From the NCBI GenBank assembly GCA_027922465.2, contig BQMF02000201.1, positions 1 to 64,000 on the forward strand: a stretch of 64,000 nucleotides of DNA. The letters are read 5' to 3'. The translations under genes and the position numbers were made by a program. This DNA comes from Turritopsis dohrnii. Lineage: Eukaryota; Cnidaria; Hydrozoa; Anthoathecata; Oceaniidae. Under the pieces are notes generated by a model, which ran no database searches, had not been told where the DNA came from, and saw only the letters and a program-made list of their open reading frames with translations. Below are positions 217 to 12,360 of this stretch, in pieces; within the stretch, counting starts at the first letter, position 1, and every line of letters starts with the position of its first letter.

Positions 217-715
217 ATGTAATCAAAATAAAAACAAAATTATAGCGTTCCGAGAGACACCACAAGCAGACACTAAGGTCTAAATGAATGATATAAAACC
301 CAAGAGCGGAATAATTTGAAAATTGTGGTGAACAGGCGACAGAGTCTGCCGGAAAGGGAAGGTCTAGTGGAGCGGCTAGATTGGAACTGGATGGTGCCGT
401 CCGCTCCCGGTATTCACCACAAAATGTGCCAAAAGTTGTCGGGAAAAACAATGTGACTAGATGTAATATACTCGAACAGATCATGAACGGCCATTGCGTG
501 CGTAGTAGTCGGAGTTCGTAAGTAGTCACACACAAATAGTCTAAGATCTAGGGGTAGAGCTCAGAGCTGGTGGATTCGAGAAGCCAGGGTGGAGTGCCGG
601 TTAGATCGAAGACAATGAATTAAAAACCCTCTAGGGTATCACAACAACAACAACAACAACAAAAACCCTAGGGGGTTCTCCTAAGGGAGTTTTGTTTTCA
701 ATAATAATAATAATA
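217..715. repeat. 499-bp segment between direct repeats in the left TIR
   Basis: The segment separates two direct copies of the same gene-end fragment. Near its end (+ strand) it carries (CAA)n, short palindromes around CCCTAGGG, and an (AAT)n run just before 716. The (AAT)n tail resembles the end of a non-LTR retrotransposon or SINE, which is an inference. A 106-aa frame inside (215-535, minus) shows no protein features and is not called. The same segment is at 10972-11470. Confidence 0.6.
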
Positions 716-1864
716 ATACCATATACTAAACATCGTGGTAATCGCTAAAACCAAAGCTATTTTCTCTTCTTCATGAGATGGGAGTGAATCTGTTTGACTC
801 ACTACTCTTTTGTGAACTTCCTTTTGTGAACTTTTATTTTTTGTTTGTGTTGGAGAGCTAGTCACTTTGGGTGAAATATGATGCTCTTGCATAACATTAA
901 TCATTTTGTTTCTTCCGAGGCTCAAGTTGTCATTAGATATGAGAATTTTATTATTATAACCAGTCACTCCCGACTTGATGTTTAGATTCATGTCACTAGG
1001 TAACATGTAAATACCTTGTCCAACAGAATAATCAACTTTGCTTGAAGCGTAATTTAAAGTATCTTGATAACGTTTAATGTCATCTTGAATATCAACTCTG
1101 CGGTTAACAATGTCTTCAAAGTTGTTCATAAAAACTCTTTGAGCTGTCAAAGAGCTTGAATTATTACCTAAAATAGAAGAACGAGCTGAGGCTTGCGAAC
1201 TAAGAACAAGATAAGCATATGCTCTAACACTCTCTGAAATTTTTACAAGACCTGTTTTTGTAAAGCCTTTAGATTTTTCTATAATCCATCGTGTCATGGA
1301 GTCGTCTGTGAAATAACTCAGACCTGGCGTTGGATAGTCTCTACGTCTTTTTTGATACGAGCTGTAAAAATATTGTCCTGTGTATTTTTTAGGATCAGAA
1401 TCGACACCATATTCACTACAGATTTTTAAAAACTCTTCTTTGTTATAAGGATTATCATATTGGTTGAAACCGTTTTCAAAAGGTAGAGGTGCCTGCAGAC
1501 GCTTAATGATTCGTCTAATATGATAATAGACGTGAAAACGATATACTGCTCTAATCATAGGAGTAGAGCGACTTTCTTTCAGATGTTCAGAACTAACTCC
1601 ACAAGCACTTGAAGCACACCAAGTGACAAAATTGAGTTGGGTTTGCCATAATTTAAATGGTTGTTCCTGCCAAATTTTCATACGTTGATCATTTTCATCC
1701 ATTTTGTAATTAGTAAAAATATTTGGAAAAGTTGCGGGGAAAGAACCGCTCTCAGAGACAATAATTGTTTGTTTGTATAAATCTTTAGCATTCAATATCT
1801 GAAGGTCTTGTCCTCCATTTGGCTTATAAGCTGCGTTGGGATTATATTTAAAAATATCCTCCAT
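698..1864 (-). CDS. Left-end element protein, 388 aa, conserved-looking, function unknown
   Basis: This is a complete frame starting 42 bp from the divergent gene at 1906. No catalytic motif is recognised. The first 226 residues are unique and aromatic-rich: a W..CASSACGVSSEHL stretch, an RAVYRFHVYYHIRR segment, then PLPFENGFNQY. Residues 227-388 lie in the TIR and are repeated in the right-end gene. The C-terminus is a hydrophobic segment (ALVLAITTMFSIW) ending in six Tyr residues encoded by an (AAT)n run, apparently acquired with the 499-bp segment. I recall similar proteins beside capsid-like genes in cnidarian genomes, but this is untested. A virion or structural role is a guess from the neighbourhood. 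Confidence 0.75.
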   Translation of the reverse strand: MEDIFKYNPNAAYKPNGGQDLQILNAKDLYKQTIIVSESGSFPATFPNIFTNYKMDENDQRMKIWQEQPFKLWQTQLNFVTWCASSACGVSSEHLKESRSTPMIRAVYRFHVYYHIRRIIKRLQAPLPFENGFNQYDNPYNKEEFLKICSEYGVDSDPKKYTGQYFYSSYQKRRRDYPTPGLSYFTDDSMTRWIIEKSKGFTKTGLVKISESVRAYAYLVLSSQASARSSILGNNSSSLTAQRVFMNNFEDIVNRRVDIQDDIKRYQDTLNYASSKVDYSVGQGIYMLPSDMNLNIKSGVTGYNNKILISNDNLSLGRNKMINVMQEHHISPKVTSSPTQTKNKSSQKEVHKRVVSQTDSLPSHEEEKIALVLAITTMFSIWYYYYYY

Positions 1865-3837: not shown

Positions 3838-4443
3838 ATGAACACACTTTACATGAAAGAACCTCACACAGCATTATTCGTCGGACCTACAGCGTGTGGC
3901 AAAACCGCCCGTGTTGTAAAACTATTAGAAAATGAATATCTCAATCACTTTGATTACATCGTGATTATATGTCCAACTTTGAGGTGGAATCAAACATACA
4001 GAGATCGGAAGTGGTTTTGGACTGACAACTATGTGATTTTAATTGAACCGCAAGGTCGCTTGTATGAATGGATTAAGGAAATGACCCTCTTTTGTGCTGG
4101 ATATAAAACCTTATTCCTCATTGACGACATAATCGCTGATGAGGAATTGGACAAAAAGAGACAGCCTTTGCTCGAGTTGGCAATTAGTGGTCGCCATCGA
4201 AACCATTCGCTATGGTTACTTACACAATCATACACGGCTATACCTAAAAATTTACGACGGCAAGCTAAAATGTTATATGTGTGGTATCCAAAAGATAGAA
4301 ACGATCTAACCACTATTCATAAAGAGAATTATATCATTGAATTGAAAGAAAATTTGAAAGAGGTCAATGAAAAGTTAAATGCGGGGAAACACACATGCCT
4401 AGTCATGAGGATGGAACACCCAAGAACGCACGTGATTTGTTAA
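3838..4443 (+). CDS. A32/FtsK-type DNA-packaging ATPase, 201 aa
   Basis: This P-loop NTPase is expected to pump the element genome into capsids. Walker A is GPTACGKT at residues 16-23 and Walker B is TLFLIDD at 91-97. SGRHRNHSLWLLTQSY at about 117-132 gives the arginine-rich and TQ sensor region typical of Polinton, virophage and NCLDV packaging ATPases. The length of about 200 aa is normal for Polintons. It starts 4 bp after the capsid-like gene, so the two are likely co-expressed. A perfect hairpin (4458-4480) follows the stop codon. Confidence 0.9.
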   Translation: MNTLYMKEPHTALFVGPTACGKTARVVKLLENEYLNHFDYIVIICPTLRWNQTYRDRKWFWTDNYVILIEPQGRLYEWIKEMTLFCAGYKTLFLIDDIIADEELDKKRQPLLELAISGRHRNHSLWLLTQSYTAIPKNLRRQAKMLYVWYPKDRNDLTTIHKENYIIELKENLKEVNEKLNAGKHTCLVMRMEHPRTHVIC

Positions 4444-4480: not shown

Positions 4481-4494
4481 AAACTGTAAGGCTG

Positions 4495-4740
4495 TTATAA
4501 GACTACTATAAGACTACTATAAGAGAATAATTTACGTCTCAATACAGGTTCTAGAATTTTACCAATATGTTTAATCCTCGATTCAAAGCGTACTCCGTCA
4601 ACAGCAGCCTCTATCCAGTTACTTCTACGAGATTCACAAGCATAGATATAATGGACCATTACTTTATCATTAAAAGTAACCCTTTTTGTATCTTGATGGG
4701 AAAATATAATATCATCATCTGAGGATTCATCATCGAACAT
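4495..4740 (-). CDS. PPP1R15 (GADD34/CReP)-like PP1-recruiting protein, 81 aa
   Basis: After an acidic start, residues 19-32 read KRVTFNDKVMVHYI: an RVxF-type PP1-docking site (RVTF, 20-23) followed by the V-x-V-H extension found in PPP1R15 proteins. Downstream are W42, RF (51-52), RI (55-56), L63 and P65, in the order and rough spacing of the PPP1R15 eIF2alpha/actin-binding helix. Known family members bring PP1 to phosphorylated eIF2alpha and restart translation under stress, and some large DNA viruses carry versions. If real, this one would counter the host integrated stress response. It is transcribed from the tandem-repeat spacer 4741-5049 and converges on the ATPase gene. It is short, so chance resemblance must be excluded by profile search. 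Confidence 0.62.
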   Translation of the reverse strand: MFDDESSDDDIIFSHQDTKRVTFNDKVMVHYIYACESRRSNWIEAAVDGVRFESRIKHIGKILEPVLRRKLFSYSSLIVVL

Positions 4741-4805
4741 AATTGTTTAAGTAAACAATGTTTATTTATTTAACAATGTTAGAATATATTATTAAACATC
4801 ATCAT

Positions 4806-5030
4806 CCTCTTATAATTATTTTGTCTTACAAACTTATAAGAAGATAGCAAACTCTTATACAGCAAATTTCAAAATAATTATAAGAGGATAGCAAACTCTT
4901 ATACAGCAAATTTCAAAATAATTATAAGAGGATAGCAAACTCTTATACAGCAAATTTCAAAATAATTATAAGAGGATAGCAAACTCTTATACAGCAAATT
5001 TCAACAAACTTATAAGAGAGTATAAGAAAA
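4806..5030. repeat. 44-bp tandem repeats with internal dyads, in a divergent spacer
   Basis: Full units start at 4834, 4878, 4922 and 4966, and a partial fifth starts at 5010, all spaced exactly 44 bp. An inverted half-unit lies at about 4806-4824. Units 2-4 contain TATAAGAG-N9-CTCTTATA, a perfect 8-bp dyad, and the first has one change. The array fills the only long intergenic gap of the element (4741-5049). An iteron-like origin or a multi-site operator/enhancer for the divergent genes is plausible. Spacing is far too short and spacerless for CRISPR. Confidence 0.85.
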
Positions 5031-5041
5031 TTATAACAAAC
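5031..5041 (+). promoter_or_regulatory. Shared promoter motif TTATAACAAAC
   Basis: The 11-mer TTATAACAAAC lies exactly 8 nt before the ATG at 5050. The identical 11-mer with identical spacing precedes the ATG at 8067. It is a candidate late or early gene promoter/initiator of the element. Confidence 0.5.
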
Positions 5042-5049
5042 ACAACAAA

Positions 5050-5694
5050 ATGATAGAATATGTCAACTTCGTGTTATTAAGTATATTGGTGATCTTGCTA
5101 TTTTACTTTTATTTTGTGTTAAAAAAATACCTCTCTCTAATAAAAATGGCGGAAACAGCGATCGATAATTTAATCAACCAGAGTTATGATGTTCCGGGTG
5201 AATTTCCACCTTCAGATGGTAAAAGACAAAAATTACTCGAGTGTGTCTTAACCGGTAATAGCAAGCTATACTTAGGGAAAATGTACACGGAAGAGCAGAT
5301 TAACAAACTCAAAGATGAAAAGGTAGAAGAACTTTTTAGTATCTATGAAGCTAAACTATCAGGTCAATGGGGGAAATCCTTGGGGAAATCACTCATACGC
5401 ATTTATTCGAGGGGGGCTTGTACAATGTTAGGAATAGACAATCAAGAAGCGCTGAGCAATGACTTGGAAGCTGACCCCTCCTTAAACTCTGCTCTTCAAA
5501 GATTTGCATGTGGCTTATATTATAAATACGGTCCATTATTAGCACCACTCAGTGTTGGACTTATTACCGGGAAGCATTATATCAATGAAAGATATTTAAA
5601 TAAATCCGATGATAATATAAATACAGTAGATAATAAAAATGTCAGAAGAACAGACTCCCATTCAAGTGACAACGAAGAACCCAAAAAAGGTTGA
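5050..5694 (+). CDS. Membrane-anchored element protein, 214 aa, unknown function
   Basis: One strong N-terminal transmembrane segment (about residues 4-25, VNFVLLSILVILLFYFYFVL) is followed by a soluble domain with YEAKLSGQWGKSLGKSLIRI and ACTMLGIDNQEALSNDLE. The tail is polar and charged. A second Met at 5146 would remove the anchor, but the shared promoter motif 8 nt before 5050 supports the upstream start. It overlaps the next gene by 56 nt. No known fold is recognised. From memory, similar proteins occur in other Polinton-like loci of cnidarians. A role in a virion membrane or in assembly is inferred only from position. Confidence 0.7.
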   Translation: MIEYVNFVLLSILVILLFYFYFVLKKYLSLIKMAETAIDNLINQSYDVPGEFPPSDGKRQKLLECVLTGNSKLYLGKMYTEEQINKLKDEKVEELFSIYEAKLSGQWGKSLGKSLIRIYSRGACTMLGIDNQEALSNDLEADPSLNSALQRFACGLYYKYGPLLAPLSVGLITGKHYINERYLNKSDDNINTVDNKNVRRTDSHSSDNEEPKKG

Positions 5695-9131: not shown

Positions 9132-10115
9132 TCACCAACCTTGCACATAATCAGGAGGTAGCTCTGTATCTTCAGGTATTAATATTAACTCTTCTTTCAC
9201 AAAAGCTCGTTCAGGTCCATCTTGAAGGTAATACATTACACGGTTACCAGGTTGATCTATTACCTCACTCAATCTATAAGTCTTCTTTGACCATATCCTA
9301 TCTGTTGCTCTTTTTCGATGGTCATCGTGCTCTTCACCCGGTTGCAATAGATATCTATACAAACCATCTTGAGGTAATTTTTCTTCAGGCGGATAGCTCT
9401 CTCGTTTAGCGAGAGGCACCTCTTTCAATTTAATAGCATCTTTCGGTTTCATATCGATCATCCGAGTCTTCGTATCGTTTAATCTATCCACAAGTTTATA
9501 CAAATATTTGACCCACGTAAATGATACCTTTTCCGAATCGTTCAGTTCTTGAGCATCTTGTATTTTGAATAAATTTTCGGCAAGTATCTTGTTCAACGCC
9601 TCGACAAACGCTGTATGGGTATGCTTATATTTAGTAGTTACTCTTTTAATTTCGACGTTATTCTTCCCCAACAATTTTGTCACATCCGCTTTGAATTCTG
9701 AACCGTTATCACATTGAAATACTTTTGGATAGTTTAAGGGTCCAACTCTATAGATATCTCTTATCATATCGGCAACCTCTTTGGCTTTCTTAGTCTTCAA
9801 AGGTCGGGCTACTTTGTAACGTGAAGCAACATCGATAGCAGATAAGATGTACTTGTATTTATTACCATATAGCATATCACTAGGCATATACAATATATCA
9901 AATTGATGAATCTCATTCGGTTTAGTTACCTCATAATGTGAACGTTCAACATGTTTCGGTGCTGGTAAATGTACTTGCCACAAAGCTTGTTTTGATAGCC
10001 ACTTCTTAATTACCTTCGGTTTGAAGTCGAATCCTCTTAGATTGCGAACAGCCTTTTGTCCTTTCCATAAGTTTTGAGGTTGATAATAAATCTCTTGAAG
10101 TTTAATGTCTGACAT
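9132..10115 (-). CDS. Retrovirus-like DDE integrase, 327 aa
   Basis: The catalytic triad is D73 (HQFDILYMP), D136 (FQCDNGSEF) and E172 (HTAFVEALNKIL), with 35 residues between the last two, the D,D-35-E spacing of retroviral and Polinton integrases. The C-terminal third (about 225-327) contains PPEEKLPQDG and a beta-rich stretch ending VKEELILIP, as in the small C-terminal domain of this class. The N-terminal region lacks an obvious HHCC zinc site; it starts directly with a basic segment, as in many Polinton integrases. It should insert the element into host DNA. The frame is uninterrupted. Confidence 0.93.
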   Translation of the reverse strand: MSDIKLQEIYYQPQNLWKGQKAVRNLRGFDFKPKVIKKWLSKQALWQVHLPAPKHVERSHYEVTKPNEIHQFDILYMPSDMLYGNKYKYILSAIDVASRYKVARPLKTKKAKEVADMIRDIYRVGPLNYPKVFQCDNGSEFKADVTKLLGKNNVEIKRVTTKYKHTHTAFVEALNKILAENLFKIQDAQELNDSEKVSFTWVKYLYKLVDRLNDTKTRMIDMKPKDAIKLKEVPLAKRESYPPEEKLPQDGLYRYLLQPGEEHDDHRKRATDRIWSKKTYRLSEVIDQPGNRVMYYLQDGPERAFVKEELILIPEDTELPPDYVQGW

Positions 10116-10215: not shown

Positions 10216-10989
10216 ATGACCGACAAAATAGAATCAGATTACCAATCAATGGGTTTTAGTGCGTTACGAGCATTATGTGCGTCACGAAAAATAAAATATG
10301 TTAACCAAATGAACAAAGCTAAATTGCTTGAGGTACTTGAGAAAAATGATAAGGATCCATCTTATACTCTCGATCCTGATACGAAACAAGCATTTTATAC
10401 ACGCTATTCAAACTGGATAAATAACAACGAAGAAAAATATCTCAGATATCGAGAGCATAATAATGAGCAGAAAAAGATGGTTCGGAAACAAAAAAAATTG
10501 GCTCGTTCTTCTATTTTAGGTAATAATTCAAGCTCTTTGACAGCTCAAAGAGTTTTTATGAACAACTTTGAAGACATTGTTAACCGCAGAGTTGATATTC
10601 AAGATGACATTAAACGTTATCAAGATACTTTAAATTACGCTTCAAGCAAAGTTGATTATTCTGTTGGACAAGGTATTTACATGTTACCTAGTGACATGAA
10701 TCTAAACATCAAGTCGGGAGTGACTGGTTATAATAATAAAATTCTCATATCTAATGACAACTTGAGCCTCGGAAGAAACAAAATGATTAATGTTATGCAA
10801 GAGCATCATATTTCACCCAAAGTGACTAGCTCTCCAACACAAACAAAAAATAAAAGTTCACAAAAGGAAGTTCACAAAAGAGTAGTGAGTCAAACAGATT
10901 CACTCCCATCTCATGAAGAAGAGAAAATAGCTTTGGTTTTAGCGATTACCACGATGTTTAGTATATGGTATTATTATTATTATTATTGA
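10216..10989 (+). CDS. SAP-type N-terminus fused to TIR-borne C-terminus, 257 aa
   Basis: Residues 12-45 (MGFSALRALCASRKIKYVNQ, then KAKLLEVLEK) fit a SAP-type helix-extended-helix DNA-binding module. A very basic stretch (KKMVRKQKKL) ends at residue 95. From codon 96 (position 10501) the protein is the same as residues 227-388 of the left-end protein, because the right TIR begins exactly there. The fusion stays in frame for 162 codons and ends in the same six-Tyr tail. It is likely a chimera made when the TIR spread inwards, so the original C-terminus of the SAP protein is lost or replaced. Confidence 0.75.
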   Translation: MTDKIESDYQSMGFSALRALCASRKIKYVNQMNKAKLLEVLEKNDKDPSYTLDPDTKQAFYTRYSNWINNNEEKYLRYREHNNEQKKMVRKQKKLARSSILGNNSSSLTAQRVFMNNFEDIVNRRVDIQDDIKRYQDTLNYASSKVDYSVGQGIYMLPSDMNLNIKSGVTGYNNKILISNDNLSLGRNKMINVMQEHHISPKVTSSPTQTKNKSSQKEVHKRVVSQTDSLPSHEEEKIALVLAITTMFSIWYYYYYY

Positions 10990-11686
10990 AAACAAAACTC
11001 CCTTAGGAGAACCCCCTAGGGTTTTTGTTGTTGTTGTTGTTGTTGTGATACCCTAGAGGGTTTTTAATTCATTGTCTTCGATCTAACCGGCACTCCACCC
11101 TGGCTTCTCGAATCCACCAGCTCTGAGCTCTACCCCTAGATCTTAGACTATTTGTGTGTGACTACTTACGAACTCCGACTACTACGCACGCAATGGCCGT
11201 TCATGATCTGTTCGAGTATATTACATCTAGTCACATTGTTTTTCCCGACAACTTTTGGCACATTTTGTGGTGAATACCGGGAGCGGACGGCACCATCCAG
11301 TTCCAATCTAGCCGCTCCACTAGACCTTCCCTTTCCGGCAGACTCTGTCGCCTGTTCACCACAATTTTCAAATTATTCCGCTCTTGGGTTTTATATCATT
11401 CATTTAGACCTTAGTGTCTGCTTGTGGTGTCTCTCGGAACGCTATAATTTTGTTTTTATTTTGATTACATAACAAAATGATTAATGTTATGCAAGAGTAT
11501 CATATTTCACCCAAAGTGACTAGCTCTCCAACACAAACAAAAAAATAAAAGTTCACAAAAGAAAGTTCAAACAGATTCACTCCCATCTCATGAAGAAGAG
11601 AAAATAGCTTTGGTTTTAGCGATTACCACGATGTTTAGTATATGGTATGTATTTCGCTGATCAGCGTATGTAGTTTGCAATTATAG
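10501..11686. repeat. Right terminal inverted repeat
   Basis: This is the inverted copy of 1-1186. Its inner edge at 10501 is the first base of codon 96 of the gene 10216-10989, so the repeat supplies the whole C-terminal part of that protein. Homology at the outer side runs to 11686, the limit set by the window edge. Confidence 0.93.
10972..11648. repeat. Mirror of the R1 plus 499-bp segment in the right TIR
   Basis: 10972-11470 mirrors 217-715 and 11471-11648 mirrors R1 (39-216). The presence of the same insertion-like structure in both TIRs means the two ends were homogenised, by replication or gene conversion, after it formed. Confidence 0.85.
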
Positions 11687-11933
11687 CCGGCATTGTGGAT
11701 ACATGCTAACACTTCTAAGCCCTGGCGTTTGTTGAATTTCGATCGAAATGACGGTAACCTGAATGTCTCTATGGACCAGAGAAACCTGACAGTGATAAAT
11801 CACCCAGACACAATGCTAACCATTCCGCGATATATTCAACACAACTGCGGGGAAGTGCGCACTCATGCAAGTTTTACAACCAGAACATGAGAGATCTACA
11901 ACCGCCGAAGTATATATACTTCCTCTCAGACGA
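11687..11933 (-). repeat. Probable body of a tRNA-derived SINE
   Basis: Read on the minus strand this continues from a tRNA-like head at 11934-12005 and runs up to the edge of the element TIR. No coding potential is seen. The 65-aa frame 11693-11890 has no protein features. Whether the element inserted in the SINE tail cannot be told without the left flank. Confidence 0.35.
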
Positions 11934-12005
11934 ACTGCGTGGGGTTCGAACACACGACCTTGTTGTTACAAGTTAGCGTTCTTATCCACTAGACTACGCT
12001 GATCT
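11934..12005 (-). repeat. tRNA-like SINE head (Thr-UGU-like)
   Basis: On the minus strand there is an A-box-like GTAGTCTAGTGGATAAGAAC, an anticodon loop CTTGTAA (UGU) and a B-box-like GTGTTCGAACCCC. The anticodon stem does not pair well and no discriminator/acceptor stem closes, so this is a tRNA-derived repeat and not a working tRNA gene. Confidence 0.55.
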
Positions 12006-12360
12006 GTATGTTATATGTATTGTTAGCTCATTTATGTTATAAAAATGAAACTACTACAAACTGCTTTTTACTACATTTTTATGAGATATTTAATTGTTTA
12101 CATTTATGAGTAATTTGTGGTTATAATAATAATAGAAACTGTTATGTAATCAAAATAACACGTTTCATAACTCGTATCGCGTTATGAAAACAAAGATGAT
12201 AATAGGGAAATTCCTGAAATCATATGATTTTGGGCCAACATCCGCACTTTCCTATCTCTGAGGTTGTGACTTCGAATCTGCTTCTGGTTGAACACAAGTT
12301 GCACGAGCCGTTTAAGGAAATTTGACGTTTATTGATACAGTGATACAGAGCAGGTGGACA
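12006..12360. other. Non-coding stretch, Helitron-like 3' part
   Basis: No gene is seen. The last part leads into the GC-rich hairpin at 12363 and is presumably the body of the Helitron-like element that ends at 12392. Confidence 0.4.

Follow-up and report, generated by a model that had tools for sequence, protein, structure and literature searches.

Passages of the literature describe the PPP1R15 proteins in some detail. The mammalian proteins are longer than 600 amino acids (PMC8500838), and a conserved core of about 70 residues is reported in a passage of PMC4394352 to be sufficient for ISR attenuation in cells. According to the same source, the RVxF crevices are filled by V641 and F643 of PPP1R15B, the phi-phi site by Y650 and I652, and R658 sits in the Arg pocket; the actin-stimulated reaction is weakened when R658, W662, F672 or I676 is altered (PMC4394352). 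In PPP1R15A, F592 and R595 contact actin (passage of PMC8500838), and His565 is found at the site equivalent to Y650 (passage of PMC10743859). An eIF2-alpha-binding motif, Rx[Gnl]x1-2Wxxx[Arlv]x[Dn][Rg]xRFxx[Rlvk][Ivc], was given by Rojas et al. (2015), as quoted in a passage of PMC5346070, where the two leucines of the LSAVL motif of DP71L are also said to weigh most for function. PPP1R15-type genes are borne by viruses as well, and passages of PMC10807198, PMC8301327 and PMC4394352 mention HSV-1 gamma-34.5, canarypox 231 and the insect-virus gene coGV-gp036.

The window analyzed here is a stretch of 64,000 nucleotides, in which an 81-amino-acid frame, named R15, had been read as a PPP1R15-like gene inside a Polinton-like element. 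The residues on which this original prediction was based are in place, both the proximal ones (R20-V21-T22-F23, V27, V29, H30, Y31, I32 and W42) and the distal ones (R51-F52, R55-I56, L63 and P65). R15 matched the Pfam family PF10488 (PP1c_bdg) with 30.1 bits against a curated cut-off of 26.1 (E 5e-7), its residues 13-59 corresponding to positions 164-210 of the 230-long profile. A phmmer search of the PDB sequences with the single R15 sequence found PPP1R15B (E 3.6e-6) and DP71L (E 0.003). With a profile made from eight R15 alleles, the E-values were 7e-8 for PPP1R15B, 3.8e-7 for ASFV DP71L and 0.016 for PPP1R15A, the scores slightly favouring PPP1R15B over DP71L (35.3 vs. 32.9 bits). The profile searches proposed along with the original prediction therefore show that the likeness to PPP1R15 extends far past the RVxF tetrapeptide, and, at the level of sequence, R15 is confirmed as encoding a real PPP1R15-type core.

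Residues 14-58 of R15 align with human PPP1R15B without gaps, and the residues that contact PP1, actin and the substrate are in register. V21, F23, H30, I32, R38, W42, F52 and I56 of R15 correspond to V641, F643, Y650, I652, R658, W662, F672 and I676 of PPP1R15B, R55 corresponds to R595 of PPP1R15A, and H30 is a histidine as is His565 of PPP1R15A. The R15 of the window agrees with the eIF2-alpha-binding motif at all set positions but S40, where the preferred glycine is found in 19 of 62 copies; W42, R51, F52, R55 and I56 are invariant in all 62. R15 thus has the RVxF, phi-phi, Arg, Trp and RF..RI elements of PPP1R15A/GADD34 and PPP1R15B/CReP with the spacing of PPP1R15B and is little more than the approximately 70-residue core, but unlike those proteins it lacks a long N-terminal region and the RARA string, and it resides on a mobile element. 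It is similar in size to the short form of ASFV DP71L (70-72 amino acids), which is likewise a stand-alone core and to which the match extends through the LSAVL motif. DP71L differs in that the alignment needs a one-residue gap before the Trp and in that its carrier is a large cytoplasmic virus. HSV-1 gamma-34.5, canarypox 231 and coGV-gp036 come from free large DNA viruses and are likened to R15 by description only; going by its name, we take coGV-gp036 to be a granulovirus gene.

Judged from its sequence, R15 most likely recruits host PP1, together with G-actin, to dephosphorylate eIF2-alpha. Alternatively, R15 could bind PP1 for another end, steering it to some other host or element protein or soaking it up, given that spinophilin and PNUTS, among other partners of PP1, also have the RVxF, phi-phi and Arg motifs, according to passages of PMC8500838 and PMC4394352. 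We consider this rather unlikely, since the region after the Trp, which a passage of PMC4394352 describes as not conserved in other PP1 regulators, is kept in R15 (A46, D48, R51-F52 and R55-I56).

The second part of the original prediction, that the gene lies inside a Polinton-like element, was borne out (Table 1). Polintons/Mavericks, which are characterized by a jelly-roll MCP, a protein-primed PolB and a target-site duplication of 6 bp, share with this element a capsid-like gene, an A32-type ATPase, an rve integrase and long TIRs. Between the TIRs, the gene order is probable minor capsid, putative MCP, ATPase, R15 (which is transcribed in the other direction), ORF5050, further ORFs and rve integrase. 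The window starts at the start of the contig, inside the left TIR, and the left end of the element lies beyond it; the element would measure about 12.8 kb if the incomplete left TIR mirrors the right one. Whereas vertebrate Mavericks have repeated AGT ends (passage of PMC8097293), the ends of this element read AGAGATAGG... The TIRs are coding: the ORFs at 698-1864(-) and 10216-10989(+) differ N-terminally but share their C-terminal part, since each of them extends into the TIR.

Table 1. Features of the element and of R15 in the window
Feature	Position	Strand	Basis or counterpart
Left TIR, truncated by contig start	1..1186		100% complementary to 10501-11686
Probable minor capsid (penton) protein, 186 aa	1906..2466	(+)	Position only; no Pfam match
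Putative major capsid protein (MCP), 439 aa	2514..3833	(+)	Weak Pfam Capsid_N, E 0.034, below its cut-off
Packaging ATPase (Pox_A32)	3838..4443	(+)	Pfam E 7.5e-8, 32.6 bits vs. 22.8
PPP1R15-like ORF R15, 81 aa	4495..4740	(-)	ATG start; ORF list, Pfam, phmmer, allele profile
11-nt tandem TATAAGACTAC repeat across R15 3' end	4496..4524	(+)
LEPVL (63-67)	4540..4554	(-)	Aligned to DP71L LSAVL; role of LSAVL from a passage of PMC5346070
R51-F52-E-S-R55-I56, putative actin/eIF2-alpha helix	4573..4590	(-)	PPP1R15B F672, I676; PPP1R15A F592, R595
W42, invariant Trp	4615..4617	(-)	PPP1R15B W662, PPP1R15A W582
R38, Arg-pocket residue	4627..4629	(-)	PPP1R15B R658
H30-Y31-I32, phi-phi docking	4645..4653	(-)	PPP1R15B Y650, I652
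RVTF (R20-F23), PP1 RVxF docking motif	4672..4683	(-)	Aligned to PPP1R15B K640-F643 (numbering of PMC4394352)
44-nt tandem repeats separating R15 from divergent ORF5050; TATAAG on both strands	4834..5018
ORF5050, divergent neighbour of R15	5050..5694	(+)	Hydrophobic start by eye
rve integrase	9132..10115	(-)	Pfam E 1.5e-11, 44.8 bits vs. 32.6
Right TIR, outer element end ~12259	10501..12259		Junctions of other copies

The size of the putative MCP, the gene order and its neighbours point to its identity; a comparison with the PDB sequences gave no credible match. Of 8000 candidates scored in the protein database, 3157 are relatives of it at E <= 0.01, so the element family is widespread. A search of viral contigs with the MCP, the ATPase and the MCP alignment returned no relatives. 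In two other copies of the element, C98 and C345, both of which also carry R15, the integrase adjoins a large ORF. In C345 (L015:239-4114(-)) this is a 1291-amino-acid ORF with a Rho_N-type start, an endonuclease VII domain and the strings DANNLYG and YMDTDS, which we take to be PolB motifs; in C98, 746 amino acids of it run to the end of the stretch examined, preceded by a 167-amino-acid frame. The large ORF gave no polymerase match in Pfam or among the PDB sequences. The copy in the window is without it and looks like a derivative that lost the PolB-like part. The 44-nt repeats next to R15 are a candidate two-way promoter. Counting both strands, the element has 15 TATAAGA sites, 14 of which lie around R15 (window 4490-5060), and the number of TATAAGA-type repeats varies among copies. 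A full-text literature search, covering few subscription papers, found no report of a PPP1R15 gene in Polintons; as far as we could find, therefore, such a gene is new for this class of element, its kind being known from large viruses such as ASFV.

The 436-Mb host genome carries R15 at 257 or more distinct sites, a figure that is the union of two scans (the best 150 of 450 and the best 150 of 413 candidates). The idea that R15 is confined to one copy was thus rejected. In the PF10488 scan of the 436 Mb, each of the 150 best-scored of the 413 candidates exceeded the cut-off, and all 20 of these that were inspected, picked as top-scoring or of odd length, proved to be R15 copies adjoining the ATPase, the MCP and ORF5050.

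The count was also made from the side of the element, by ranking MCP copies with the relative P0108 and taking the best 97 of 1096 candidates. R15 was present in 86 of these 97 and absent with both flanks present in 10, and one copy is cut. The proposed search for the gene in related elements was thus positive within this genome and, with the similarity past the RVxF, supports the reading of a PPP1R15-like gene in a Polinton-like element. An R15 match lay 654-1254 bp away in the genome scans for 55 of the 97 copies; a search with the human PPP1R15B core added 5. The rest of the 86 came from two sets of spacers, in which 16 of 20 and then 10 of 17 contained R15. Two of the 86, L073 and L086, have the R15 match split over two frames. 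In L064, the copy breaks off behind the ATPase, where sequence resembling an end of the element itself follows.

The ten copies without R15 (L061, L066, L067, L082, L085, L087, L088, L089, L091 and L093) have the ATPase end and the ORF5050 start within 1 kb. Their spacers contain TATAAGA-type repeats and showed no R15 remnant, the best chance match having an E-value of 0.30. Those of L088 and L089 are identical, so that the absence in these two may be one event. On a tree of 52 ORF5050 starts, from which L064 and also L074, L077, L080, L084 and L095 (ORF5050 piece too short) were omitted, the state without R15 needs three changes, and with midpoint rooting 8 of the 10 R15-less copies form one cluster inside the carriers. 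Because this cluster is nested in carriers, a recent gain of R15 is no more likely than its loss or exchange.

We also analyzed how R15 varies among copies. The whole motif is in one frame at 64 of the 70 R15-bearing loci examined; of the other six, two have a frame shift and four carry a change at one of the motif positions. In 62 copies, the dN/dS of R15 was 0.96 (0.41-2.80) with a dS of 0.036, compared with a dN/dS of 0.19 and a dS of 0.21 for the ATPase (27 copies). ORF6238 gave a dN/dS of 0.135 (21 copies), ORF5050 0.30, ORF5639 0.50 and ORF6008 0.40, and in smaller sets R15 gave 0.83, the MCP 0.16 (9 copies) and the integrase 0.17 (5 copies). Copies under 80% coverage were dropped from these sets, and the 62-copy set was also without the duplicate loci L041 and L042; a first estimate, which excluded the odd frames L030, L034, L040, L053 and L054, had been 0.84 for the whole R15 frame and 1.16 for its core. 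Thus, several other genes of the element are under clear purifying selection, whereas with values of 0.8-1.0 purifying selection on R15 is not demonstrated. The low silent divergence of R15 fits a cassette that spread or was exchanged recently.

Nine residues of R15 were treated as contacts and compared with the remaining 72. Amino-acid variants seen in at least one copy affected 1 of the 9 and 33 of the 72 (p 0.046); when a variant had to occur in two or more copies the counts were 0 and 23 (one-sided p 0.041), and with three or more copies 0 and 17 (p 0.106), the p-values being uncorrected for multiple tests. These counts are weak evidence for fixed contacts combined with fast or free change elsewhere in R15. 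The R15 alleles of L030 and L074 have the acidic N-terminal stretch DESSDDDIIF lengthened or repeated. Compared with 20 other copies, the ATPase of the window (3838-4443) is up to about 21% different over 100 nt (4301-4400), unlike its R15, which differs from other copies by about 4%, indicating that the copies are mosaic.

It is possible, with a likelihood we judge equally small as that of another role in PP1 binding, that R15 is a fragment of a captured gene which has ceased to matter and travels with the element as it transposes. The dN/dS near 1, the silent divergence of 0.036 against 0.21 in the ATPase, the 10 of 97 MCP copies without R15 and the truncated or frame-shifted copies all agree with such a passenger; that the motif stays in one frame at 64 of 70 loci, that the contact residues hardly vary and that 86 of 97 MCP copies keep R15 argue against it. 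A chance likeness, in a spurious ORF running antiparallel to the capsid genes, was refuted, for though the ORF is short and the DNA low in GC, the E-values from Pfam, phmmer and the allele profile, the genome-wide copies and the gap-free register with PPP1R15B leave it practically no probability.

The host genome gave one eIF2-alpha match, in which the Ser51 loop with MILLSELSRRRIRS is intact. No host PPP1R15 exon was seen among the matches listed for the Pfam profile, the human PPP1R15B core and one WE..ARDR.RF pattern; since these matches are, by frame length, apparent copies of the element, a weak or split exon may be missed. No relatives of R15 were found in the protein database with the single sequence or the eight alleles, a search in which small ORFs may be missing and whose reach is limited by a word filter, nor in viral contigs with the R15 alignment and two N-terminal patterns only, and there was no match in PHROGs. 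A contig bearing an R15 copy also holds a COX1 fragment in two overlapping frames (C880:5673-7012). It has TGA in frame and, with AGA/AGG read as Arg, its best PDB match has Arg at 4 of 5 such sites of the aligned part and Lys at the fifth; it is perhaps a nuclear copy of mitochondrial DNA. This usage agrees with the mitochondrial code of cnidarians and sponges and points to a non-bilaterian host.

We therefore favour, with a probability of about 0.7, the reading that R15 is a stand-alone functional core of PPP1R15 on a Polinton-like element, a PP1/actin adaptor countering eIF2-alpha kinases. When expressed, R15 would wrap host PP1 via RVTF, H30/I32 and R38, its helix after W42 would bind G-actin, and Ser51-phosphorylated eIF2-alpha would be held against the catalytic centre. 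The resulting dephosphorylation would lift the translation arrest imposed by the host eIF2-alpha kinases, so that the capsid and replication proteins of the element could be made, to its benefit. In the simplest view, R15 would be a minimal PPP1R15 mimic acting like DP71L. The dN/dS near 1, the weak depletion of variants at contact sites, the ten R15-less copies and the lack of relatives in the searches count against this mimicry.

Polintons may still be viruses, as their capsid genes hint. A gene of a kind known for sustaining translation in stressed or defended cells would be a hint of another sort, which lends itself to testing in vitro. We suggest, tentatively and at somewhat less than even odds, that these elements are working viruses facing an eIF2-alpha kinase defence that R15 overcomes, that the cassette is exchangeable, being gained or lost via the flanking TATAAGA repeats, and that its exposed residues change fast while the contacts are fixed. 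A PPP1R15 mimic in such an element would also widen the range of this viral strategy, known from large DNA viruses, to include integrating elements only about 13 kb long.
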